From a virus: DNA of 50,465 nt. Positions 1-50,465 of the stretch are shown piece by piece; the stretch's first letter is position 1; each line of letters starts with the position of its first letter. The position numbers were made by a program, and so were the translations under genes. The stretch spans positions 1 through 50,465 of the IMG/VR virus record IMGVR_UViG_3300024429_000003. The stretch is one strand, 5' to 3'. The notes under the pieces are model-generated. The model saw only the letters and a program-made list of their open reading frames with translations, was not told the origin of the DNA and searched no databases.

Positions 1-127
1 GGCTAAATAAATCTGTTGCTGTATCAATATCATCAAGTAATTTCCATAATTTAATTGTTTTTTCTTTCATATGCCTTTATTCCTTTCAGATAACGCAGAA
101 TTAACCGGATTGTGAGGGCTTTTCCGA
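1..127. repeat. Terminal overlap, left copy (circular genome)
   Basis: These 127 bases recur exactly at 50339-50465. An exact overlap of odd, k-mer-like length is what an assembler leaves when it closes a circle, so it most likely marks a circular or circularly permuted molecule and not a physical terminal repeat. The overlap carries the start of the small minus-strand gene whose full copy is at 50214-50408, and the left half of attC site 1. Confidence 0.9.
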
Positions 128-155
128 GCAATTCCGGTTAAATGACTTGTTATAC
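89..155 (-). other. attC: attC-like recombination site 1
   Basis: Read on the minus strand the site opens with TATAACAAG (R'' side) and closes with GCGTTATC (R' side), the classic outer boxes of integron attC sites. Inside, AACCGG-A-ATTG pairs with CAAT-CCGGTT, leaving one extrahelical A after six paired bases, as in well-studied attC hairpins. Spacings between outer and inner boxes (8 and 6 nt) also fit. The preceding gene (101-262) ends inside the site, as is common for cassettes. Confidence 0.85.
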
Positions 156-262
156 GGTTTCTTTTTTAAATTTTCTCTTATCTGATATCGGTAACAATTA
201 TATTTAATATTTTTTATTTTACAAATTTGCCGTAAACTACAATTAATAAAATCACATTTCAT
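101..262 (-). CDS. Small four-cysteine cassette protein (53 aa), unknown
   Basis: A 53-codon frame starts at an ATG preceded by a GGGGTG ribosome-site-like stretch and ends with TAA inside attC site 1, so its last ~16 codons are encoded by the recombination site. The N-terminal half has cysteines at residues 3, 8, 14 and 23 (MKCDFINC start), followed by a lysine-rich stretch, suggesting a small metal-binding or DNA-contacting protein. It is the only gene between attC2 and attC1. Function is unknown and the frame is short, so it could be non-coding cassette filler. Confidence 0.5.
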   Translation of the reverse strand: MKCDFINCSLRQICKIKNIKYNCYRYQIRENLKKKPYNKSFNRNCSEKPSQSG

Positions 263-297
263 TGATACACCCCAAATCAAAATGCCTTATTCCTTTC

Positions 298-361
298 GCA
301 TAACGCTGCGATAACCTGCCTGAGCCTTTATGCGAAGGTCAGGTTTATTGGCTTGTTATAT
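298..361 (-). other. attC: attC-like recombination site 2
   Basis: The minus strand reads TATAACAAGC at the R'' side and GCGTTATG at the R' side. The inner stem is AACCTG-A-CCT against AGG-CAGGTT, again with one extrahelical A after six paired bases. The site is almost identical to attC3 (one difference over about 59 nt) and different in sequence, but not architecture, from attC1 and attC4. Confidence 0.85.
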
Positions 362-362
362 T

Positions 363-578
363 TTAATCATCTAATTGCATACAACATCCTAATTTTGTGG
401 TAGCCCCATCAGGCCTTGGCATCCTCGGAGTTGATTTTGGACGGTTGAATCTTTTTGCGCAGGCGGCAAGATGTTCAAGACCAAGAAAACAATGCCCATT
501 TTTTTCCTCAATAAAATCATCTTCCCCCCAAATATCCCAATTGTTACAATTACTATTAACACATTTTTTTCTTCTCAT
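363..578 (-). CDS. Cysteine-rich cassette protein (71 aa), unknown
   Basis: Lies alone between attC3 and attC2 on the strand in which the attC sites read, with its stop just before the R'' box of attC2, which is standard cassette organisation. The ATG at 578 is chosen because a GGAGG sits 8 nt upstream; a TTG start at 593 would bury that site. Cysteines occur in a CxxxxC pair near the N-terminus (KKCVNSNC), two more around the middle and a CC near the C-terminus, so a zinc-binding fold is possible. No family is recognised. Confidence 0.7.
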   Translation of the reverse strand: MRRKKCVNSNCNNWDIWGEDDFIEEKNGHCFLGLEHLAACAKRFNRPKSTPRMPRPDGATTKLGCCMQLDD

Positions 579-605
579 TTTACCAACCTCCAATTATTAT
601 TTAAA

Positions 606-669
606 ATATAACGCTGCGATAACCTGCCTGAGCCTTTATGCGAAGGTCAGGTTGATTGGCTTGTTAGGG
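606..669 (-). other. attC: attC-like recombination site 3
   Basis: The minus strand reads CCCTAACAAGC (R'') through GCGTTATA (R'). It has the same inner stem with extrahelical A as attC2, from which it differs at one internal base and in the outermost R'' bases. It closes the gene-free cassette at 670-839. Confidence 0.85.
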
Positions 670-839
670 GGTGTGTCGGTTAAATACCAGGCTTTCCCAA
701 CACAAAGCTCTATGAGGCTGCATAAACCTGATCAGTTTATGCTTTCAACTATACATAATCCTAACCATTCGCTACCTGGGCACTTGGCCTACTTTGGCGT
801 ACAGTCCCCCTTATTATAATTTTTTTATTATCATTCTCC
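670..839. other. Gene-free cassette between attC4 and attC3
   Basis: About 170 bp bounded by two attC sites with no credible reading frame on either strand. The minus strand offers only MIIKKL and similar tiny peptides. It contains an inverted repeat, CATAAA...TTTATG, around a CTGATCAG palindrome near 721-741. Integron cassettes without genes are known; such units may carry promoters or small RNAs. The plus-strand frame through here crosses attC2 and attC3 and is not credible. Confidence 0.6.
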
Positions 840-907
840 CTTAACGATAGAATTAACCGGATTGTGAGGGCTTTTCCGAACAATTCCGGTTAAATGACTG
901 GTTAGCT
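840..907 (-). other. attC: attC-like recombination site 4
   Basis: The minus strand reads GCTAACCAG (R'') to TATCGTTAAG (R'). The inner stem is the AACCGG-A-ATTG type and is identical to attC1 over 31 bp (849-879 versus 97-127), then differs by one base (A here, G in attC1), then matches for about 19 more. The R' box is a little degenerate. It lies 53 bp downstream of the nuclease gene stop and is the first attC met by transcription from the regulator promoter. Confidence 0.8.
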
Positions 908-960: not shown

Positions 961-1623
961 TTAATTATCTCCGGAAATCTTTTTTGCTTCAAGTTTTTTG
1001 ATGACCGTAAAGACATCGCCGATAGTCCAGGCATAGCCGATGACCCTGCCGGCTGCCTCAGCTTCCCGGCCCCATTTTTTCTGCAGAGGAGAAGGGGTCC
1101 CTTTTGCAGATTTAAGCTCTACAGATCCGGCCGCGCCTTTCCAGCATAACAGCCAATCATGGATACCGGCACAACTGCAATATTGACCTTGCTCTTTCCT
1201 GGTTGCCTGAAGATCTTTACCGAAAAGAGGCCATAACTTTTTTACTTCTTTATTCAGGTCCTTTTCTAAACGATATTTTTTGTTAATGATTGATTCAAAT
1301 TTAGACAAGTCAATGCCAAAATTTTTTTTGAAATGGAGGAGAGTATCTTTTTCAGATAATGGTCTTATTTCATTACTTGTTATTTTCATAGATTCAGACA
1401 TTTGTGTGGAATTTTGCCATTTTGAATCCTGATTAAATGTTTTCATATCATACAACCAAGATTCAAATTCATTATCTCCCATAACATGCCGCATTGCATC
1501 TAATAAGCTATTGCCTACTTCATCCCGTTCTAAAGTTTTATCTTTAAGATAATATTTACAATAAACCCATTGGCAGGCTGCTAACAGCTTTCCGATAGTC
1601 CTATTTAAATTGTCAATTTTCAT
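961..1623 (-). CDS. VRR-NUC-type nuclease (220 aa)
   Basis: The C-terminal ~75 residues carry the VRR-NUC pattern: an HDWLLCWKG region, then VELKSAKGTPSPLQKKW, then an AEAAG and a VFTVI segment. This gives the acidic/lysine E-x-K core and the following glutamine of PD-(D/E)xK nucleases. Phage VRR-NUC proteins are proposed Holliday-junction or flap nucleases. The N-terminal ~130 residues are helical, charged and unrecognised, so the protein is longer than the usual stand-alone phage VRR-NUC (~100 aa). It is the last gene before attC4, in an operon with the genes at 1648 and 1979. It may act in recombination or in inter-phage competition. Confidence 0.7.
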   Translation of the reverse strand: MKIDNLNRTIGKLLAACQWVYCKYYLKDKTLERDEVGNSLLDAMRHVMGDNEFESWLYDMKTFNQDSKWQNSTQMSESMKITSNEIRPLSEKDTLLHFKKNFGIDLSKFESIINKKYRLEKDLNKEVKKLWPLFGKDLQATRKEQGQYCSCAGIHDWLLCWKGAAGSVELKSAKGTPSPLQKKWGREAEAAGRVIGYAWTIGDVFTVIKKLEAKKISGDN

Positions 1624-1647: not shown

Positions 1648-1950
1648 TCATAAGGCATCCTCACATATATATTCTTGTCTAAATTTTATTATAATATCCA
1701 TCTTAATCATTTTTACAACATCGCGATAAGTAACCAAATTTTTGTATCCATTTTTAGGGTCTTTTACGTATTTAATATTATTTTCTTTTATTATGAAAAA
1801 GAAAAATTCTTTTTTCATTTTATCGCCGACTATTCCCATATCTTCTTCTATTCGCCTATTTAAATCATTTTGGTTCCATTTTTTCCCATAATCATTCATT
1901 ATTTTTTCTGTTAGTCGTTCTTCTTCTTCCCAATTTATTTTATAGGCCAT
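1648..1950 (-). CDS. Unknown charged protein (100 aa)
   Basis: A charged, mostly helical protein of 100 residues starting MAYKINWEEEERLTEK, with alternating acidic and basic patches and no recognised motif. It lies between the ribbon-helix-helix gene and the nuclease gene on the minus strand with gaps of about 25-30 bp, so the three are probably co-transcribed. A weak purine stretch (AGAAAAAGAAA) precedes the ATG. Confidence 0.6.
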   Translation of the reverse strand: MAYKINWEEEERLTEKIMNDYGKKWNQNDLNRRIEEDMGIVGDKMKKEFFFFIIKENNIKYVKDPKNGYKNLVTYRDVVKMIKMDIIIKFRQEYICEDAL

Positions 1951-1978: not shown

Positions 1979-2155
1979 CTACTCCCCGATTATATGAATT
2001 TTTAAAAGTTGTACCGTTAACGGTTGCCGAAGATATTCTTCCAGCAATTCAGTAACCAGACACGAATAGCTTTTTTTTGTGACCGTTGAAAGCACTTTTA
2101 ATTTCATATGTAGTTCCGGCGTCATAACCAGGCTTACTTTCCCTTTATACATCAT
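1979..2155 (-). CDS. Ribbon-helix-helix (Arc/CopG-like) regulator, 58 aa
   Basis: The 58-residue product fits the ribbon-helix-helix pattern: a short basic beta strand (YKGKVSLVMT), a first helix (PELHMKLKVLS), a turn, and a second helix (SYSCLVTELLEEYL). Such proteins bind operators as dimers. Its promoter (2205-2233) fires away from, and nearly abuts, the integrase promoter (2241-2269), so it is well placed to repress integrase and itself. ATG at 2155 is used; an immediate second ATG at 2152 is an alternative. Confidence 0.75.
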   Translation of the reverse strand: MMYKGKVSLVMTPELHMKLKVLSTVTKKSYSCLVTELLEEYLRQPLTVQLLKIHIIGE

Positions 2156-2297: not shown

Positions 2298-3422
2298 ATG
2301 AAAATCAGAACTAAAGAAAAATGTCCTTTGTGCGGGGGGAGATTTGTCGATATAGGCTGGACCTTTATCTGCCCGAAAAGAGAATGCCTGACACATCCGA
2401 AATATTATTATATCGAGATATGCTGGAAGGGAAAACAATATCGATTATATTCTTCGAGTAGAGGAAAAGGATTTAAAACCTTCGATTCCGTAAAAGAAGA
2501 ATTTAAGCGAATAGAAGACAGGATTGCTGAAAGGTCCTTTGACCCGGAGGACTATCAAAAAAATAGAGAAATACACTTTTCCTTCGAGCATTATGCTGTT
2601 AAGTGGGTAGAGCAATGCCGGACAAAACTTGACCAAAATATTATTGCTCCTCTTACATACAAAGCATCGGAGAGATATACCCGCCTCTATTTTATTCCTC
2701 ATTTTAAAAAATCTGATATCAGAGATATTAATAACAGCGATATAACCGACTTCTGGCATGATCTTCCGGCTTCTCTGAAAATTAACACACAGAAGAATAT
2801 TCTCCGCTGGCTGCATACATTATTTTCCTACGCAAGACAACGGCAGGATATTTTTTATCTTCCGGTTTTTCCTAAAATAAAAGCTGAAGACAGCTTTATG
2901 CCTATATTAAACACAGAAACTATAAAAAAAATTTATAACCGGGTCAGACCGGCATACAAGCCTGTAATTCTATTCCTCTGGAAACAAGGCTGCCGACCGG
3001 CAGAGGCCAGATCTCTACAAATAGAGGATATTAATCAACATAATAAAACAATAACTATCAGACGATCATATTCAGGAAATGTTTATCGCGCGAAAACTAA
3101 AAATAAAAAAATCAGGATAATTCCTATCCATCCTTTAGTCTGGGAAACATTAAAAAAAATAACAAAAAAAGAAGGTTTCATCTTTCTGACTCCTCAAAAT
3201 AAACCAATCAGTCATTCCACTATTCGGCGTGTGTGGCTTAAGGCTGTTACAGCTTGTGATTTGCCTCATTGTCCCCCGTATACCCTCCGCCATAGTTTTT
3301 GCAGTCGGGCCATTAACGCCGGCGTATCAAAAAAACTCGTCATGGAATTTTTGGGGACTACTGTTTCCAATTATATCCATATCTCTCCTGTCGGCCTTCA
3401 GGCATGTCTTGAAGAAGATTAA
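2298..3422 (+). CDS. int: Tyrosine integrase with N-terminal zinc ribbon (374 aa)
   Basis: A phage-type tyrosine recombinase for site-specific integration and excision. Residues 9-30 form a zinc-ribbon-like segment (CPLCGG...CPKREC), followed by a beta-rich arm-binding region, a core-binding helical domain (about 90-185) and a catalytic domain. Catalytic Arg is near residue 233 (GCRPAEA), the basic beta-hairpin is KTKNKKIRIIP, and box II reads YTLRHSF with Tyr where His is usual (about 328) and Arg 331. The nucleophile is Tyr359 (SNYIHIS). The usual LGH is LGT here. The extra helix between patches II and III that marks integron integrases is absent, so this is not IntI. No attP core could be assigned. 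Confidence 0.9.
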   Translation: MKIRTKEKCPLCGGRFVDIGWTFICPKRECLTHPKYYYIEICWKGKQYRLYSSSRGKGFKTFDSVKEEFKRIEDRIAERSFDPEDYQKNREIHFSFEHYAVKWVEQCRTKLDQNIIAPLTYKASERYTRLYFIPHFKKSDIRDINNSDITDFWHDLPASLKINTQKNILRWLHTLFSYARQRQDIFYLPVFPKIKAEDSFMPILNTETIKKIYNRVRPAYKPVILFLWKQGCRPAEARSLQIEDINQHNKTITIRRSYSGNVYRAKTKNKKIRIIPIHPLVWETLKKITKKEGFIFLTPQNKPISHSTIRRVWLKAVTACDLPHCPPYTLRHSFCSRAINAGVSKKLVMEFLGTTVSNYIHISPVGLQACLEED

Positions 3423-7857: not shown

Positions 7858-9408
7858 ATGTCATCACTATTATTACAGAAAACTAAAATTATTAATGTCG
7901 GGCCAATCAAAAACATTGAGCTGATTTTCAATGGCCCGGGGGTCTATACCATTTCCGGGAAGAACGATGTAGGTAAAACTACTGCCTTACAAGCTATTGC
8001 AATATTATTACAACCCTTTCCAAGAAAAGGAGAAAACCCTCTGAAAAACGGCGAAAAATCAGGTGAAGTCATTGCCTGGCTGGGAGATTCCGGCAACGGT
8101 TTAGAGGTGCAAGATAATCCGACGCCTGAAATCCACAAATATAAACTTTCCCGCAGATTTACGCCTGATAGTATATCGAAGGATAAAAACAACGTAGATG
8201 TATTGGTAAAAGGAGTTGGCTCCGTCGTTTGTGAATATGTAGGAAATGATTTCAAAGGAAAAATACCTCCAAAGGATGTATTGAATAGTTTTATTGCTGA
8301 TTTGGGATCATTTGATCCGTGGGCTTTTATAAAACTGGATGACAAAGACCAGATGGCGGCGGCTTTAACAGTAGTAAAAATTTCGCTCGATCGACAAAAA
8401 CTGGCTGAGATTGCAGGACTTGACCCTGAAAGAAATGCCTGGATCTGGCCGGACAGTGATCTGGACTGTATGGATCAACTATCAAATAAGCTATATGTAT
8501 GCAGGCAGGAGACGAACCGGTATCTTGAACGAGCTAAGGCTGTTTTTGCTGACATTGTGATCCCGGAAGACCGCAAAGATACAAAAGCCGTAAAACTTGT
8601 AGAGTTGCTGGCTGAAAAGCAGATATTAGATGAAAAGAAGGAAATTAATGATGCAAAACATATAAAACTTATTGATTTGAAGGTTGATAAGGATGATAAG
8701 CTTCGTGAGTTTGAAAATTGCACAAAACAACAGGTAACAAATATCGACACCATAGACAATCAGATAGCAGTTCTACATAAGCAAATCAATATGCTCAAAG
8801 AAGAAAAAATAATCCAGATTAATGCCGGGAACGTTGGACGTGAGAATCTGAAAAAACAAATTAAAAATATCAACAGCGATATCGATTTTCAACAAAAAAC
8901 TGTTGATGCTCTTATCCCCGTTGATTACACCGAGATCGACTCCAGGATTTCCAAAGCCGACGAGACAAACGTCTGGGCCGCGAAGGTGGAAGATAAAAAG
9001 ATCAAAGAAGCTGAAGTCGATAAACTTTCCAAAGGAAGCATTGATTTTACTCTGAAAATGCAGAAAATTACCGAGTACAAAAGAGAACTCCTCTCTCAAA
9101 CAAAATTTCCCTGCGAGGGAATGTCCTTCGCTGACGGAAAAGTAACCATGAAAAATAAAGACGGTATAGATATTCCCCTCCGGTCCCATGGCGGCAAAAC
9201 TCAACTTTTTGCCGCATTTGAAATATTAAGAGCGCAGAACCCGAAGCTTAAGGTTGTTCTTTCGTTCAGTGAAACACAAATTGATGAAGAAAACACAGCA
9301 GTTTTAGATAAATTAGTCAAAAAATACGGGTTCCAGTTCTTACGCTGCCAGGTGGCTGAGGTCGCAGAGGACGGAATGTTTTTTATTGAAAATGGTGTAA
9401 TGGGGTAA
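7858..9408 (+). CDS. RecF/SbcC-like AAA ATPase (516 aa)
   Basis: An SMC/RecF-type ATPase. Walker A is SGKNDVGKTT (residues 33-42) after a beta-rich start. The central part (~240-400) is a charged coiled coil. The C-terminal lobe has RSHGGKTQLFAAF, where an ABC signature would be expected, and VVLSFSETQID in the Walker B position; the usual DE pair is not obvious, so ATP hydrolysis could be altered. Such phage proteins are found beside recombination and single-strand-binding genes and probably handle DNA ends. It ends in a TAATG overlap. Confidence 0.8.
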   Translation: MSSLLLQKTKIINVGPIKNIELIFNGPGVYTISGKNDVGKTTALQAIAILLQPFPRKGENPLKNGEKSGEVIAWLGDSGNGLEVQDNPTPEIHKYKLSRRFTPDSISKDKNNVDVLVKGVGSVVCEYVGNDFKGKIPPKDVLNSFIADLGSFDPWAFIKLDDKDQMAAALTVVKISLDRQKLAEIAGLDPERNAWIWPDSDLDCMDQLSNKLYVCRQETNRYLERAKAVFADIVIPEDRKDTKAVKLVELLAEKQILDEKKEINDAKHIKLIDLKVDKDDKLREFENCTKQQVTNIDTIDNQIAVLHKQINMLKEEKIIQINAGNVGRENLKKQIKNINSDIDFQQKTVDALIPVDYTEIDSRISKADETNVWAAKVEDKKIKEAEVDKLSKGSIDFTLKMQKITEYKRELLSQTKFPCEGMSFADGKVTMKNKDGIDIPLRSHGGKTQLFAAFEILRAQNPKLKVVLSFSETQIDEENTAVLDKLVKKYGFQFLRCQVAEVAEDGMFFIENGVMG

Positions 9409-9668
9409 TGAATACTATTATTGTTGATCTTTTCAAAGCTGATCTTTTAGAAAAGGAAGAAATTCCTGATGTATATATACATATTACAGATAGACTTCCT
9501 GAATTTAAAGGAAAAGACTGTTTCAAAAATGCTGAAGAGCTTTATGAGAAAGAAGCTGAAAGATTAGAAGATATTCTTCAAAAATGTTTACCACAAGGAG
9601 TAAAGGACAGACTATTAATAAAATTGATGAAACGTAAAGTTTCATTGTATAGAGGAATAACATCATGA
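9408..9668 (+). CDS. Unknown acidic protein (86 aa)
   Basis: Starts in the TAATG overlap with the ATPase and ends in an ATGA overlap with the next gene. Helical and acidic (ELYEKEAERLEDILQK), no recognised motif. Probably a partner of one of its translational neighbours. Confidence 0.6.
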   Translation: MNTIIVDLFKADLLEKEEIPDVYIHITDRLPEFKGKDCFKNAEELYEKEAERLEDILQKCLPQGVKDRLLIKLMKRKVSLYRGITS

Positions 9669-44105: not shown

Positions 44106-45299
44106 ATGCCAACGCTTTCCGAAATGCTGATAGAAGGAGAGAAAAGAAGAAGAAGGAAAAAGAAAGGTGTCGGAGCGGGTGAGCTCCTTGAACAATTAAC
44201 AGTAAAGAAGTTATTCAAGCCCGGCAGGGAAGAGTATTGGCGATATATGCAGTCAACCGGCATGGAATCTCAGGATATAGTAGACGCCATTTTTAAGGAT
44301 CAGAAAAATAATATTGCAAACCCGAAAGATATTTCAGCCGCACAGGAGAAAGCAACACTACAGACCCAGACAGGGCAGAATCTTCTTGATGTATTGAGTC
44401 AGGGGTTACAACAGCAGGCGCAGGGTGCGCAACCTCCTTCAACTATGCCTCGACAGAATATACAACAAGCCCCTTCAACTATGCCTCAACAGAATATACA
44501 ACAACAGATGCCTTCTGCTTTACAGCAGCAAACAGTATTACCAATGCAAGATGAATGGCGACAGGATATACAACTGCCTGCTGCCTTACAGCAGCAAACA
44601 GTATTACCAATGCAAGGTGAATGGTTTCTTTCTCCACAGCAGCAAGGCATTCGCGGATTAATGCAGGCCGATCCCCGGTCAGCTACCTTTGAGACTATGC
44701 AGAAGAGTTTCCCTCAAAGGTTTAGTCCTCCTCCGGATCCATTAACTCCATCAGAACGAATGACACAGGAAGAACTTGGTATATTAAAAGGTGTTAAAGG
44801 TAAAGAGAGAAAAGAGATTGCTGCTTTTCCATCATTAAAACCGCATAAACCGCTAAGTCCTTATGAAGAACGAAGACTTAAATTAAGTGAAAGACGACAA
44901 AAGTCTTTGGAGGAATCCAGAAGAATAGGATTAATAAGAGAAAAACGGCTTAGTTTGGCCGATGACCGACGATATGAGATCGCTGTAGAAAGATTAGGTT
45001 TAGCTACTGCAGACCTGGATTTGGATAATCGAAAATATTTAGTAGAATTAGCCAAAATAGATGAAGCCAGCGATTATAGAGCAATTAAGGCAATATTAGA
45101 GCAGGCCAAAGCAATAGCCCCCGGCCAAGGAATGACGAATGATCTTTTAGGGCAGGCTATCGAACGACTAAAGATAATGGATACCAGATTTGATAAAACG
45201 CACAAGCGTGCGGTAAAGCGAGTAAAATCATGGTTTTTCTGGGAAAAACCTACATTGAGAGGGGTTAAAGAAATTGACCAATACGGAGATCTGTTTTAA
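44106..45299 (+). CDS. Internal/ejection protein with tandem repeats (397 aa)
   Basis: Basic start (EGEKRRRRKKKGVGAG), a Gln/Pro-rich repeat zone (~110-175) and a helical, charged second half (SERRQKSLEESRRIGLIREK). AGGAGGTAAA upstream; TAATG overlap with the giant gene. Sits in the P22 gp7/gp20/gp16-like position as the second of three internal proteins. Confidence 0.6.
   Translation: MPTLSEMLIEGEKRRRRKKKGVGAGELLEQLTVKKLFKPGREEYWRYMQSTGMESQDIVDAIFKDQKNNIANPKDISAAQEKATLQTQTGQNLLDVLSQGLQQQAQGAQPPSTMPRQNIQQAPSTMPQQNIQQQMPSALQQQTVLPMQDEWRQDIQLPAALQQQTVLPMQGEWFLSPQQQGIRGLMQADPRSATFETMQKSFPQRFSPPPDPLTPSERMTQEELGILKGVKGKERKEIAAFPSLKPHKPLSPYEERRLKLSERRQKSLEESRRIGLIREKRLSLADDRRYEIAVERLGLATADLDLDNRKYLVELAKIDEASDYRAIKAILEQAKAIAPGQGMTNDLLGQAIERLKIMDTRFDKTHKRAVKRVKSWFFWEKPTLRGVKEIDQYGDLF
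44436..44624 (+). repeat. In-gene tandem repeats
   Basis: Two copies of a 31-nt unit (44436-44466, 44472-44502) encode PSTMPxQNIQQ, and two 43-nt copies (44516-44558, 44582-44624) encode ALQQQTVLPMQxEW. The copies differ at only a base or two, so the duplications are recent. Confidence 0.85.
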
Positions 45300-48200
45300 T
45301 GCCCAGATGGTCAGAAGTTGAAAAAGATCCCCGATATCTGACTTTAACAGATGAGGTAGAGCGTCAAAAAGTAAGACAGAAATTTTATGATAAACATGTT
45401 GTCCCCCGGTTTAATAGTTTAAATGCTTCTGAAGAAGAAAAAAAAAGAGTAATAAATAAAATATTTAAAGGCAAATTTGTTCAGGCGCCCTTTGAAAAAG
45501 CCAAAACAAAAGTTTTGAATATTGCAGCGCAGAGGGCGCAGCCGCAAGAGATACAACCGGGCATAAATGCGCTTATTCCGGGTACGGCTATGCCGCAACC
45601 CTCCCCTATGCAGAACCTAGAACAGAGTTTTGCCGCTGTTCAGGAACAACTAACCGATCCATTAAAGCCTTACGGGAAAATTCAAAAATTATTACCCCAT
45701 ACCGATTTTCAACAGAAGGCTTTTCAGCACGGATTATTGCCGACACAGCCAAAAGAGCAAAGGCTTATGTTGAAGATGGCTAAAAAGGATTATCCTGTTT
45801 CTTATTATGGCGGGCAACTCACAGGTTATGCTCTTAGTTATATACTTACTGGTGGAGTTAGCGCTGCAATGAAAACCAGTCCCCGGATATGGTTAGCAGC
45901 TCAGAGGTTTGGACCTAATATTAATCAGACAATCAATATTATGGCCAATGCCGCTAGAAGCGTTTCTGCGTATGGCGCTAAAAAACTTGCTGATAATATC
46001 TTAGATATAGCCGTGGGAGGAGAAAAACCCACAGTCGGGAAGCTTGTAGGCGAACCTTTAGAGATGGCAGGTTTTGGATTAGTTCTGGGTGGCGCTGTAG
46101 GGATAGAGAGTACAGCCGCTAGATTAGCAGTAACGGGGGCAGCTAGTGCAGGGTATGACACAATAGTAAAAACAGGTAAAAGGCTATGGGAATTATATGG
46201 CGGGCAAGAGCATACTAAAGAAGATGTAATAAATGACTTAAGAGATATTACGCTCATGGCAGGTATAAGGACAGCGGTTCGGTCTATTGGCTCTGCAAAA
46301 CTTACTCAGCAATTAAAAGAAGCCAGAATAGTAGATTTTTATCAGAATAAATCTCTTGCTGGTATTATGCATGGAAAAGCTGGTACTGCAACAGAGTGGG
46401 CATCTGCCAGAAAAACATTATTAGAACCAAAGGCGCTGTCAAAGGCTATAGGAAAACAGGTTTTTGGTATGTCTGAGGCTGAAGTAAGCGCTAAATTAGT
46501 GAAGCCTGGACCGCATCATCCTACCATAAAAGAGCTTCATGATATGGTTTTTAAAACAGCTGGCCCAATAGTTTACGAACAGGTAATTGAAACAAAGATG
46601 CCGGGTTTTGAAGGACTGCCCCCGGACATGAAAGAAAAGCTTGTTGGCGGTATTATTGGATCTATAAAAGGCGGGATGCCGATAGCACAGGCCATTGATT
46701 CGGCCGCCGAGGCGGTCAGGCCGATAACCGAGCAGGGATTAATGTTTTTACAGAGCTTAGCCGGACAAATACCGCCTGGTGAACAAGTCATATCTGGCGA
46801 GCCTGCTATCTCTTCGCCACAAAAAATATCCTCACAAGAAAAGATGCAGGCATTTTTTACGGGAGGTTTGCCGAAACAAGCGCCTGCTCTGCCAAAAATA
46901 AAGGTCCCGGTTAAGCCGATAATTAAAAATTCCGCTATTCAAGATGCATATAATAAGGCCATGGAATTAATCCCTGAAGATATTAGAAACGACATCGATG
47001 TAAAGGCTATTGTAGAGGTAAAATTTTCAGATCTATATGAAGGGGAAGGGGGAAGGCTTGAAAGAGGCGGCAAGGGTGAACATTTTGTTTTAATAGAAAA
47101 GGGTGAAAAAGATATTGTCGAAACATTAACCCATGAATTATTACATAGCTATGTTCTGAGACATCCGGAGTTAGAAGAAGGCGGCGGATATTTCTGGATG
47201 GAAGACGCTGTTAATAAATTACATGATAAAATAAAAGGGCGTCCTGGGGCCAAAGCAAGAGCTCAAGTGATCAAAACAAAATACCTCACGCAAAAGCCTG
47301 TCACCGAGCAACAAAAAGCTACTATCAAAAATCTTCGTCCTAAGATCAAAGAGCTGGAATTAAAATTGCAGACAGGCAAATCATCAATCAATAGTCTCAC
47401 CTCTTCTGAAGCCGATCAGTTGATTAAAAAGTTACAGGCTGAAAAACAAACTGAGACAGCAACTAAGATGGAAAAGTTTTTCGGCATAAAGAAAGCTAAA
47501 CCAAAAGTCGGTCTGACATTAGAAGAGGCAATAAAGAAACCTGTCCCCGGCATACCTGAAAAATTTCCCGGTAAAGAAGAAACTGTCGGCATTAAATTCA
47601 AGGCTGAAGGGCAAGAGTTATACAAACCTATTATCGAGGGAACGAGTAATAAAATACAGCGGAAAATAGTGCATACCATGGCCAAAGATGCCGGGATGAA
47701 TGAGGTTGCTTACAGGGATATAATAGAAAAAATGGCAGGGGTTAGAAGTATTACACAAGTATCCGAAGAGGATGCACAGAAAGTTATCCACGCCATTGAT
47801 GATAAATTGAGAGTGCAGGAAGATAAAACGCTGAAAAGTATATTGATTTCGCCAAAAAGGAAAGCTGAAATATTAGAAAACAGAATTACCAGATTGGAAC
47901 GAATAGGCCGAACAGTTGCGCCGGCAGATTATGAAAACCAGGCAAAGGCAGTTGAGAGGATTAATCAAGGCAAAGTCAGCAAAAAAGATTTAAAAGATCT
48001 TGGCGTATATAAAGCTATGACCGAAACTAAAGAAAAGGATTTCCCAGGTATTGAAGCGACATACTTATCAAATTTACGACCTGTGAGACATGTATTTAAG
48101 GCAGATCCTAAAGCATGGCGTATGTATAAGCCTTTAGAGAAAGCATCAAAGGCTGCGGATAAATTACGATTCAGCCTGGAAAAAGAAGTGAATGAAGTAG

Positions 48201-49762
48201 TGAAAAAATTAGGCATGTCTGATAAAGACCTTATTGCCGTCAGGGAATTTATGGAACGTACCAAAGAGGCGCCTACGACACTAACAGAAAAACAGGCTAA
48301 GTTCAGGGATTGGCTGCACAAAAAACAGGGTGAAAATCCGGGTGAAGGATTGCACGGATTATTCAAAGTAAAAGGATTCGTTAAAGAGGATTATATATCC
48401 AGGCGCCTTGATCGGGAAGCTTTCAGCATGGAAGAAATTTTACGGGATCGGCTGACTGACTTTGTCGATGATAAGAAGGTATTACCGAAAATCAAAAACT
48501 GGTTCGATCTGACACGGACAGGAAAATTAAAGGGCGCTAAGAAAAATGCTCTTGATATTTACAAAGACTATATCCGGGCAGGGACCAGGAAGTTATATTT
48601 TGACGATTTGCTAAAAAATATGCGTAAAGAAGACCTCACAAAATTGCAGCCGGGCATGAAAGAGGCCATGAATGATTATATCTATCGGCTTCTTGGGTAT
48701 CCGACAACACAGGCATATAAATTTCAGGAATTATTAAATAGAAGTTTGAGCGTTCTCCCTGGGGTAAAAGGTGAGCTTAGTTTAAAAGGCACAATGAATT
48801 TAGCTCAGTTCTTAGTGGATTTTGCTTATGTCCGGCACCTTGGATTCAGATTAAAGAGCCCTACTAAAAATTTAATTCAGACTATAAATAATACTGTTCC
48901 GGAATTAGGTTTGTATTGGACAGCCAGGGGGTTTGGTAGATTATTTCAAAAAGGATTTAAGGAAGCTAGTAAAGCAGGTATACTTTTAGAGTTTGCGCCG
49001 GTCATGTTCAGAGAATTTGCTAAAGGTGATTATGGTGATTGGTGGAAGACCACTAAGGATTACTCTTTAGGCATGTTTCAATTCAGTGATATGGTAAATA
49101 GGTGTATTGCTTACTATGGATCTATTGATAAATTCGACCATTTTTTAAAGAGCTATAGAAAACATAAAAATATACCTAAATTCCTTAAATGGCTTGAAGT
49201 TAATCATATGCACCCTCGATACCAAGAAGACATAACGGAAGCGCTACAAACGGGTAATGTCAACGAAGCACGAAAGATATATGCTGAGAAGATCACAGGC
49301 GATACACAATATCTTTATACAAAGCAGGACTCTCCATTAATTACGTCCCATCCCGGGGGTCGGATGTTATTTCAATATGCCTCCTGGCCGATTAATTATA
49401 CTGAATTGTTGGTTGATGATGTTAAACAGAAACATTGGCAGGCTATTGCAAGAAGATTGTTATTATATGTGGCCATTGGTGGGCTTATAAAAACAGGGGT
49501 AGTTGATGAAAAAAACCTGTTAAGGCAAGCGACGGGGTTAGGGCCCTATAAATGGAAACGTCAAAAAGATATAGTCCCGGCTTCTTTAGCTCCAATTGCT
49601 GATACACTTGATTTAATATTATTGCAAGGGGCCAGGCAGGCTTTACAAAAGAAACTTTTAACTAAAAAACATTTTACAAGATATGGAAAGAAAGTTCTTC
49701 CATTAGTAGGGCAGGATATTCAGAAAGCAATAGAGAAAAAATCCGTAAAGGAATTATTTTAA
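45299..49762 (+). CDS. Giant internal/ejection protein with HELLH motif (1487 aa)
   Basis: Largest gene, last of the virion operon. N-terminal ~120 residues are disordered, then Gly/Ala-rich hydrophobic segments (~155-290) that may insert into membranes. At ~612-616 is HELLH inside ETLTHELLHSYVLRHPELEE, followed by an EEGG segment: a zinc-metalloprotease-like active site. Long charged coiled coils follow, and the last ~350 residues (LVDFAYVRHLGFRLKSPTKN, FQFSDMVNRCIAYYG) match the C-terminal region common to very large phage internal proteins. It probably enters the cell with DNA and may cut a host protein or peptidoglycan-linked target. Confidence 0.7.
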   Translation: MPRWSEVEKDPRYLTLTDEVERQKVRQKFYDKHVVPRFNSLNASEEEKKRVINKIFKGKFVQAPFEKAKTKVLNIAAQRAQPQEIQPGINALIPGTAMPQPSPMQNLEQSFAAVQEQLTDPLKPYGKIQKLLPHTDFQQKAFQHGLLPTQPKEQRLMLKMAKKDYPVSYYGGQLTGYALSYILTGGVSAAMKTSPRIWLAAQRFGPNINQTINIMANAARSVSAYGAKKLADNILDIAVGGEKPTVGKLVGEPLEMAGFGLVLGGAVGIESTAARLAVTGAASAGYDTIVKTGKRLWELYGGQEHTKEDVINDLRDITLMAGIRTAVRSIGSAKLTQQLKEARIVDFYQNKSLAGIMHGKAGTATEWASARKTLLEPKALSKAIGKQVFGMSEAEVSAKLVKPGPHHPTIKELHDMVFKTAGPIVYEQVIETKMPGFEGLPPDMKEKLVGGIIGSIKGGMPIAQAIDSAAEAVRPITEQGLMFLQSLAGQIPPGEQVISGEPAISSPQKISSQEKMQAFFTGGLPKQAPALPKIKVPVKPIIKNSAIQDAYNKAMELIPEDIRNDIDVKAIVEVKFSDLYEGEGGRLERGGKGEHFVLIEKGEKDIVETLTHELLHSYVLRHPELEEGGGYFWMEDAVNKLHDKIKGRPGAKARAQVIKTKYLTQKPVTEQQKATIKNLRPKIKELELKLQTGKSSINSLTSSEADQLIKKLQAEKQTETATKMEKFFGIKKAKPKVGLTLEEAIKKPVPGIPEKFPGKEETVGIKFKAEGQELYKPIIEGTSNKIQRKIVHTMAKDAGMNEVAYRDIIEKMAGVRSITQVSEEDAQKVIHAIDDKLRVQEDKTLKSILISPKRKAEILENRITRLERIGRTVAPADYENQAKAVERINQGKVSKKDLKDLGVYKAMTETKEKDFPGIEATYLSNLRPVRHVFKADPKAWRMYKPLEKASKAADKLRFSLEKEVNEVVKKLGMSDKDLIAVREFMERTKEAPTTLTEKQAKFRDWLHKKQGENPGEGLHGLFKVKGFVKEDYISRRLDREAFSMEEILRDRLTDFVDDKKVLPKIKNWFDLTRTGKLKGAKKNALDIYKDYIRAGTRKLYFDDLLKNMRKEDLTKLQPGMKEAMNDYIYRLLGYPTTQAYKFQELLNRSLSVLPGVKGELSLKGTMNLAQFLVDFAYVRHLGFRLKSPTKNLIQTINNTVPELGLYWTARGFGRLFQKGFKEASKAGILLEFAPVMFREFAKGDYGDWWKTTKDYSLGMFQFSDMVNRCIAYYGSIDKFDHFLKSYRKHKNIPKFLKWLEVNHMHPRYQEDITEALQTGNVNEARKIYAEKITGDTQYLYTKQDSPLITSHPGGRMLFQYASWPINYTELLVDDVKQKHWQAIARRLLLYVAIGGLIKTGVVDEKNLLRQATGLGPYKWKRQKDIVPASLAPIADTLDLILLQGARQALQKKLLTKKHFTRYGKKVLPLVGQDIQKAIEKKSVKELF

Positions 49763-49932: not shown

Positions 49933-49996
49933 AAATAACGAATACATCAGGGGCGCACAGCTCTATCGTGCGTCCCTTGAATGCGCTGGTTATATT
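49933..49996 (-). other. attC: attC-like recombination site 5
   Basis: The minus strand reads TATAACCAGC (R'') to TTCGTTATT (R'). CAAGGG-A-CGCAC pairs with GTGCG-CCCCTG (one mismatch), with the extra A in the same place as in the other sites and the same 8- and 6-nt spacers. The stop codon of the gene at 49990-50217 lies inside the R'' box. It is the most diverged of the five and marks the array's downstream end, next to the late genes. Confidence 0.75.
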
Positions 49997-50217
49997 TTAA
50001 ATAGTGTCAATTGTCTCTCAGACACCGATTTCTCTTTAATTTTTTTAATGCCTAATTGTACTCTGATTTCATCACACCAAATTTTGTACGGGTGCATTGC
50101 CCTTTCGCCGTAGGGATATGCCTGTCGTAGTTTTTTACGTAGATTTTTTATATCAGATGTGCCAACTATAGATATAATCTCTGCGATTATAGGTCTTACC
50201 TGATCACGCCTAGTCAT
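49990..50217 (-). CDS. Conserved small cassette protein (75 aa)
   Basis: Sequence MTRRDQVRPIIAEIISIVGT and LRQAYPYGERAMHPYKIW, DEIRVQLG is of a type seen as short hypothetical proteins in bacterial accessory regions. All-helical with basic residues. Its stop sits in attC5 and its start overlaps the previous minus-strand gene (ATGA), so the two form one two-gene cassette. Confidence 0.7.
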   Translation of the reverse strand: MTRRDQVRPIIAEIISIVGTSDIKNLRKKLRQAYPYGERAMHPYKIWCDEIRVQLGIKKIKEKSVSERQLTLFKI

Positions 50218-50408
50218 ATTTTCTCTTTAGTTTCCGGATCAAATAAATTATACCCATCCGAAATAAATATTTTATGCCGTTCCTGCTGTTTTTTGGTTAC
50301 ATATTTATAATATGCTTCATAAGATTTTAAATCGTGGAGGCTAAATAAATCTGTTGCTGTATCAATATCATCAAGTAATTTCCATAATTTAATTGTTTTT
50401 TCTTTCAT
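50214..50408 (-). CDS. Small cassette protein (64 aa)
   Basis: Starts right after attC1 (in the circle), behind GAAAGGAATAAAGGC, and is translationally coupled to the next gene by ATGA. KLWKLLDDIDTATDLF, then QQERHKIFISDGYNLF, resembles small accessory proteins of other mobile elements. Its 5' part is repeated at the left end of the window because of the terminal overlap. Confidence 0.7.
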   Translation of the reverse strand: MKEKTIKLWKLLDDIDTATDLFSLHDLKSYEAYYKYVTKKQQERHKIFISDGYNLFDPETKEKI

Positions 50409-50465
50409 ATGCCTTTATTCCTTTCAGATAACGCAGAATTAACCGGATTGTGAGGGCTTTTCCGA
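50339..50465. repeat. Terminal overlap, right copy
   Basis: Exact copy of bases 1-127; see the left copy. It ends inside attC1, exactly at the base before the first difference between attC1 and attC4. Confidence 0.9.

Follow-up and report, generated by a model that had tools for sequence, protein, structure and literature searches.

Integron cassette arrays are documented in bacteriophage genomes. Qi et al. (2023) describe complete integrons and 17 integrase-less attC clusters (CALINs) in phages, virulent ones included, and IntI1 recombined five of the six phage attC sites tested (PMC9892861). Carriers of CALINs include Tetrasphaera phage TJE1, Polaribacter phage P12002L, and Pseudoalteromonas phage PH101, while Vibrio anguillarum phage p16 undergoes excision at two attC sites; attC sites are also thought to hold weak terminators (PMC9892861). 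A further report describes IntI as acting at secondary sites as well (PMC10127599), and promoter activity has been shown for gene-less cassettes of Vibrio superintegrons (PMC11014356). The locus described here is a new example of these known phage CALINs. It very probably consists of four complete cassettes and the 3′ part of a fifth in a circular temperate tailed phage, with exchange only through IntI supplied in trans. A sequence-only reading of the same DNA knew of no standard example in tailed phages, a view that the published phage CALINs and complete integrons overturn (PMC9892861). Its central proposal, an integron-type cassette array on a phage, stands for the attC sites and the integrase-less array but not for its novelty.

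The window, the whole stretch of DNA analyzed, comprises 50,465 nucleotides and corresponds to positions 1 to 50,465 of IMG/VR virus record IMGVR_UViG_3300024429_000003. Its first 127 bases are identical to its last 127 (50339-50465), as where an assembler leaves a k-mer overlap at the ends of a circle; 127 is a common assembly k-mer size, and the genome is best read as circular with 50,338 bp. Because the contig is circular, positions 49933-50465 and 1-907 are contiguous and make up one minus-strand locus. The record encodes a terminase, a portal(-like) protein, a head protein, helicases, a primase, an amidase, and a tyrosine integrase, and the host of the array is an uncultured, circular, temperate tailed phage. 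The array has the late genes on one side and the lysogeny/integrase region on the other.

The tyrosine integrase (2298-3422, plus strand) is the sole tyrosine recombinase detected in the record. It is a phage integrase (PF00589, E 3e-20; phrog_1, E 2.2e-44) and not an IntI, scoring 43.2 bits with TIGR02249 against a cut-off of 265. A six-frame search of the record found no IntI, with best scores of 30-43 bits against the same IntI cut-off, which agrees with the sequence-only reading. The 1487-aa late protein encoded at 45299-49762 contains a GemA-like segment at approximately residues 784-843, with PF06252 just below its cut-off. Single-sequence searches of IMG/VR with this late protein, the integrase, and the terminase found no relatives and no related phage with a different array. 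Among isolated phages and approximately 700 bacterial genomes, the best match to the terminase reaches only about 30% identity.

The array contains five attC sites, all on the minus strand and within approximately 1.3 kb across the circular junction, where a CALIN is defined by at least two close sites. It lacks the IntI gene that a complete integron combines with attI and is an integrase-less attC cluster. The first site, attC 1 (839-907; R″ TAAC, R′ GTTAAGG), and attC 4 (88-155) belong to type A and share 87% identity, while attC 2 (606-669) and attC 3 (298-361) belong to type B and share 91% identity. The last site before the late gene, attC 5 (49933-49996), is the weakest and represents a third type, C. 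The cassettes therefore derive from two or three site families at the least. Covariance models call the sites at 88-155, 298-361, 606-669, 839-906, and 49933-49995, all on the minus strand.

All five sites have the outer boxes TAAC and GTTA, in keeping with the paired R″ and R′ boxes of attC (YAAC/GTTR), and in each the coding strand has an extrahelical A after its inner box, as in the bacterial training sites. Covariation was assessed in an alignment of four window sites and three published phage sites; attC 5, which has an imperfect inner box, was not part of it. In these seven sites, three outer pairs are invariant and the fourth is kept in six. Covariation is evident in the inner stem (AACCGG/CCGGTT versus AACCTG/CAGGTT), where both partners change in 9 of 11 pairs and 97% of cells are paired, whereas control slides give 0-2 such pairs. 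The sequence-only reading had placed five attC-like stem-loops on the minus strand with these outer boxes and the extrahelical A, and all of them are present, within one base of the positions it gave. The inner stem that it described covaries, and in attC 5 (49933) the inner box is imperfect. Likewise, its conserved spacers exist, but the model assigns 8-9 nt to each side, and the lengths of 8 and 6 nt that it proposed hinge on how the stem is drawn.

Identification of the sites relies on two covariance models. The first, R1, was built from attC sites of bacterial arrays that were not pattern-selected and contains no window sequence. Its sources are IntI-linked sites in Thermomonas, a Desulfobacteraceae MAG, and a gammaproteobacterial MAG, together with sites elsewhere in these and further MAGs, and most of the training arrays are from genomes with a true IntI. 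With filters off and the whole 50-kb window searched, the five sites occupy ranks 1-5, all on the minus strand, at 26.7 (attC 4, E 2.4e-4), 23.2 (attC 1), 17.3 (attC 2), 16.0 (attC 3), and 15.8 bits (attC 5), and the sixth-best match scores 9.9 bits. Taken singly, the E-values of three of the five are 0.05-0.13; the decisive evidence is the joint ranking of all five sites, on one strand and in one place.

The second model, R2, is broader (27 bacterial sites) and includes pattern-selected ones, so it is less independent than R1. It scores attC 4 at 42.2 bits (E 2.5e-8), attC 2 at 37.5 (E 3.7e-7), attC 1 at 34.9 (E 1.6e-6), attC 3 at 33.8 (E 3e-6), and attC 5 at 21.7 (E 0.0034), and the matches ranked next in the window all come from two of these sites read on the opposite strand. 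As a positive control, R2 recovers each of the three attC sites published for phage TJE1 with scores similar to those of the window sites, and as a negative control it finds no match in 699 kb of phage DNA that had been selected on other grounds. It also finds none in the first 50 kb of the 132-kb genome of phage PH101. A search with an attC covariance model had been proposed as a check on the sequence-only reading, with a lack of matches counting against it; models of bacterial sites built for this analysis place the five sites first in the window, and R2 matches every one of them (E 2.5e-8 to 3.4e-3).

A 2-gap attC pattern drawn from four of the window's own sites matches four of the five, attC 1 among them, and does not occur in 100 dinucleotide-preserving shuffles of the window. 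The pattern was then used to locate bacterial arrays, and 6 of 12 examined bacterial genomes with sites of the window's sequence class contain an IntI above the curated cut-off. A looser first pattern was rejected because it gave mostly chance matches. A home-made box-and-stem detector was likewise rejected as proof, since only two of the five sites reach its score threshold of 12, the higher at 14, and random sequence can at times do as well; it was kept only for collecting training sites in bacterial arrays. Rfam returned nothing at gathering scores.

Read on the minus strand, the locus runs from an Arc-like regulator through a 100-aa ORF and a 220-aa ORF to attC 1, an ORF-less unit, attC 2, a 71-aa ORF, and attC 3. 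It continues with a 53-aa ORF, attC 4, a unit of 64- and 75-aa ORFs, attC 5, and the convergent end of the 1487-aa late gene. Cassette boundaries were inferred from the G/TT in each R′ box. Within these bounds, cassettes 3, 4, and 5 each pair a compact ORF content with their own attC, as gene cassettes do, and cassette 2 is without an ORF. Cassette 2 (612-844, minus strand) spans 233 bp between recombination points, with no convincing ORF in its sequence. It contains a palindrome, GCATAAAC-CTGATCA-GTTTATGC (N7 spacer), at 720-742, which is a possible operator.

Cassette 3 (304-611, minus strand) encodes a Cys-rich 71-aa ORF that begins at an ATG (MRRKKC...) with GGAGG ahead of it and stops 1-2 nt before attC 3; the ORF has no Pfam, PHROG, or PADLOC match. 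Cassette 4 (94-303, minus strand) has a leader, GAAAGGAATAAGGCAT, that abuts attC 3, and a 53-aa ORF that starts at ATGAAATGTGAT (MKCDFINC...) and reads into attC 4. Cassette 5 is divided by the ends of the record. Its first part (1-93, minus strand) holds the leader GAAAGGAATAAAGGCAT, which abuts attC 4, and the start of the 64-aa ORF, and it resumes at 50338. The second part (49939-50338, minus strand) holds the 64-aa ORF (50214-50408) and the 75-aa ORF (49990-50217); the stop codon of the latter lies against attC 5 or overlaps it. Cassettes 4 and 5 open with a common leader, GAAAGGAATAA(A)GGCAT, immediately after the R′ box of the preceding site. Thus, in cassettes 3, 4, and 5, ribosome-binding leaders lie right after the previous site, and stop codons fall at or in the attC. 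The gene-then-site order, abutting stops, and leader placement are consistent with cassettes, and the order is the one that the sequence-only reading described. The cassette genes have nothing recognizable in Pfam, PHROGs, NCBIfam, or PADLOC.

Upstream of attC 1, the 220-aa ORF (961-1623, minus strand) has a weak endonuclease match (phrog_93, E 1.3e-9). Since the first cassette has no fixed 5′ boundary, this gene may either belong to cassette 1 or be resident in the phage. It is preceded by the 100-aa ORF (1648-1950, minus strand), which has no function assigned and shares the transcriptional direction of the array, and by the 58-aa Arc-like regulator (1979-2155, minus strand; weak match to phrog_3180, E 0.0026). 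Both strands of the interval that separates the Arc-like gene from the integrase contain promoter-like sequences, with those of the minus strand at 2233-2206 and 2181-2154. A consensus scan of positions 1-2600 found no terminator-like sites from the Arc-like gene to the array. The Arc-like gene is a candidate head of a leftward operon reading into the cassettes, and leftward reading of the cassette genes would start either from this operon or at a promoter inside cassette 2.

The 75-aa gene is the sole cassette gene with relatives. Its family is present at 67 other viral loci, on more than 200 Pseudomonas plasmids, and on Aeromonas plasmids. One relative occurs in a prophage-like region of a Desulfobacterota genome, beside a gene read by eye as Mu-GemA-like. 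The family has an invariant core, AYPxGER..PY..W, and no convincing Pfam or PHROG match. Its candidacy as an integron gene was rejected: among the copies examined, no attC lies near the relatives in the plasmids, the Desulfobacterota prophage-like region, or the 67 viral loci. It is a phage and plasmid gene that occurs here as a cassette. A comparison with bacterial integrons, suggested with the sequence-only reading, found no match to these cassettes among the bacterial arrays examined, and the 75-aa family appeared only outside attC arrays. None of the cassettes was found beside an attC in the bacterial or viral loci examined.

More than ten other viral contigs contain attC sites, several of them together with phage structural or replication genes, and phage attC arrays may be commoner than the 2023 survey implies. 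The IMG/VR contigs L003, L004/L009, L006, L010, L014, L020, and L024 carry one to eight sites each; several of these encode portal, terminase, helicase, or Sak4-like genes, and L010 has two clusters. Two further viral contigs, L021 (with head and portal genes) and L023, are 99.8% identical along 6.8 kb, up to a break within an attC (13340-13395 in L021, 1324-1379 in L023), beyond which their cassettes differ. A cassette of L023 reads as a DNA methyltransferase. This divergence supports gene turnover at such sites. The break lies mid-site and not at G/TT, which makes IntI action no more likely an explanation than homologous recombination of similar sites, and the genes there run opposite to the model-called attC strand. 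The question raised with the sequence-only reading, whether related phages carry different cassettes at the locus, is answered for this pair, which is unrelated to the phage described here, and not for the latter.

Each attC of the array is expected to fold as a single-stranded hairpin whose extrahelical base would permit IntI recombination of the bottom strand. Since the phage itself lacks IntI, its cassettes could be inserted, excised, or exchanged only with an IntI from the host cell or another element. Exchange would be possible if phage DNA, folded as single strands, came into contact with a host IntI. The array was probably acquired from at least one host integron, either through IntI recombination at an attG-like G/TT or as a captured piece of a host integron, and movement of these cassettes between phage and host integrons is plausible. 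A more ambitious reading makes the array a working gene-exchange port, in which resident genes become cassettes, are swapped by a host IntI during infection or lysogeny, and supply replaceable small host-takeover or counter-defense genes expressed from the lysogeny operon. This reading draws on the cassette that carries an otherwise ordinary phage gene family and on the divergence of L021 and L023 inside an attC, and it is best regarded as speculative and rather unlikely. The opposite reading, a dead remnant whose cassettes were captured once with host DNA and now persist as ordinary phage genes that no longer recombine, is a tentative possibility of somewhat greater weight. The missing IntI, three unrelated site types, one weak site, unrecognized genes, and the normal non-cassette life of the 75-aa gene elsewhere fit such a remnant. 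However, the outer boxes and stems are intact, the near-identical site pairs (87% and 91%) differ at tolerated positions, and the L021/L023 break suggests that such arrays can turn over.

The remaining alternatives concern what the sites and the record are. An explanation of the stem-loops as terminators, or as dispersed hairpins of another kind that separate small genes, is highly improbable: although they are sited between or after short genes and attC sites are themselves thought to contain weak terminators (PMC9892861), the consensus scan found nothing terminator-like in 1-2600 and gave a single match, at chance level, near 49968. Moreover, attC boxes, spacers, and the extrahelical base are conserved, the bacterial attC model matches, and the hairpins are absent from the rest of the phage. 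A false circle or chimera that joins a bacterial integron to a prophage is improbable. The overlap equals a common k-mer size (127) and is located in cassette 5 and attC 4, and IMG/VR is mostly metagenome-derived; against this, the array spans only approximately 1.3-1.5 kb in continuous sequence with phage genes on both sides, the gene set looks complete, and neither an IntI nor further attC sites are present. Use of an attC as attachment site by the phage tyrosine integrase, leading to integration into host integrons, is very improbable. The integrase gene is 1.4 kb from the array, and phage p16 provides a precedent with its excision at two attC sites (PMC9892861), but the integrase is of ordinary phage type, no integrated copy or attL/attR pair was found, and a five-site array is unlike an attP.

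Among described systems, the array is closest to the CALINs of TJE1, P12002L, and PH101, with which it shares several attC sites, small cassettes, no IntI, and a tailed-phage genome. It differs from them in that its uncultured phage has its own integrase and its five sites of three types lie beside the lysogeny region. The recognizable cassette genes of those CALINs are methyltransferases, whereas the cassettes here have no recognizable function. A complete integron for comparison is found in Desulfobacteraceae MAG Umea1_bin-2529 (contig CAIMCT010000012), where an IntI gene (8689-9618, minus strand) is followed by three divergent attC sites. The two share the attC sequence class and gene-site order, and one of the MAG sites matches the window's pattern; in contrast, Umea1_bin-2529 has an IntI divergent to the array, a bacterial genome, and different cassettes. 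Cassette 2 resembles the gene-less promoter cassettes of Vibrio superintegrons in being a short ORF-less unit that ends in an attC, but promoter activity has been shown for the Vibrio cassettes (PMC11014356), whereas cassette 2 may contain a promoter. The locus is a clean example of integron cassettes traveling in phage genomes, and if a host IntI acts on the sites, phages would be both cassette carriers and users of the bacterial gene-exchange system. Its contribution to the phage CALINs already known is that the carrier is an uncultured temperate phage, that the five sites fall into three types, and that the array sits next to the lysogeny region.
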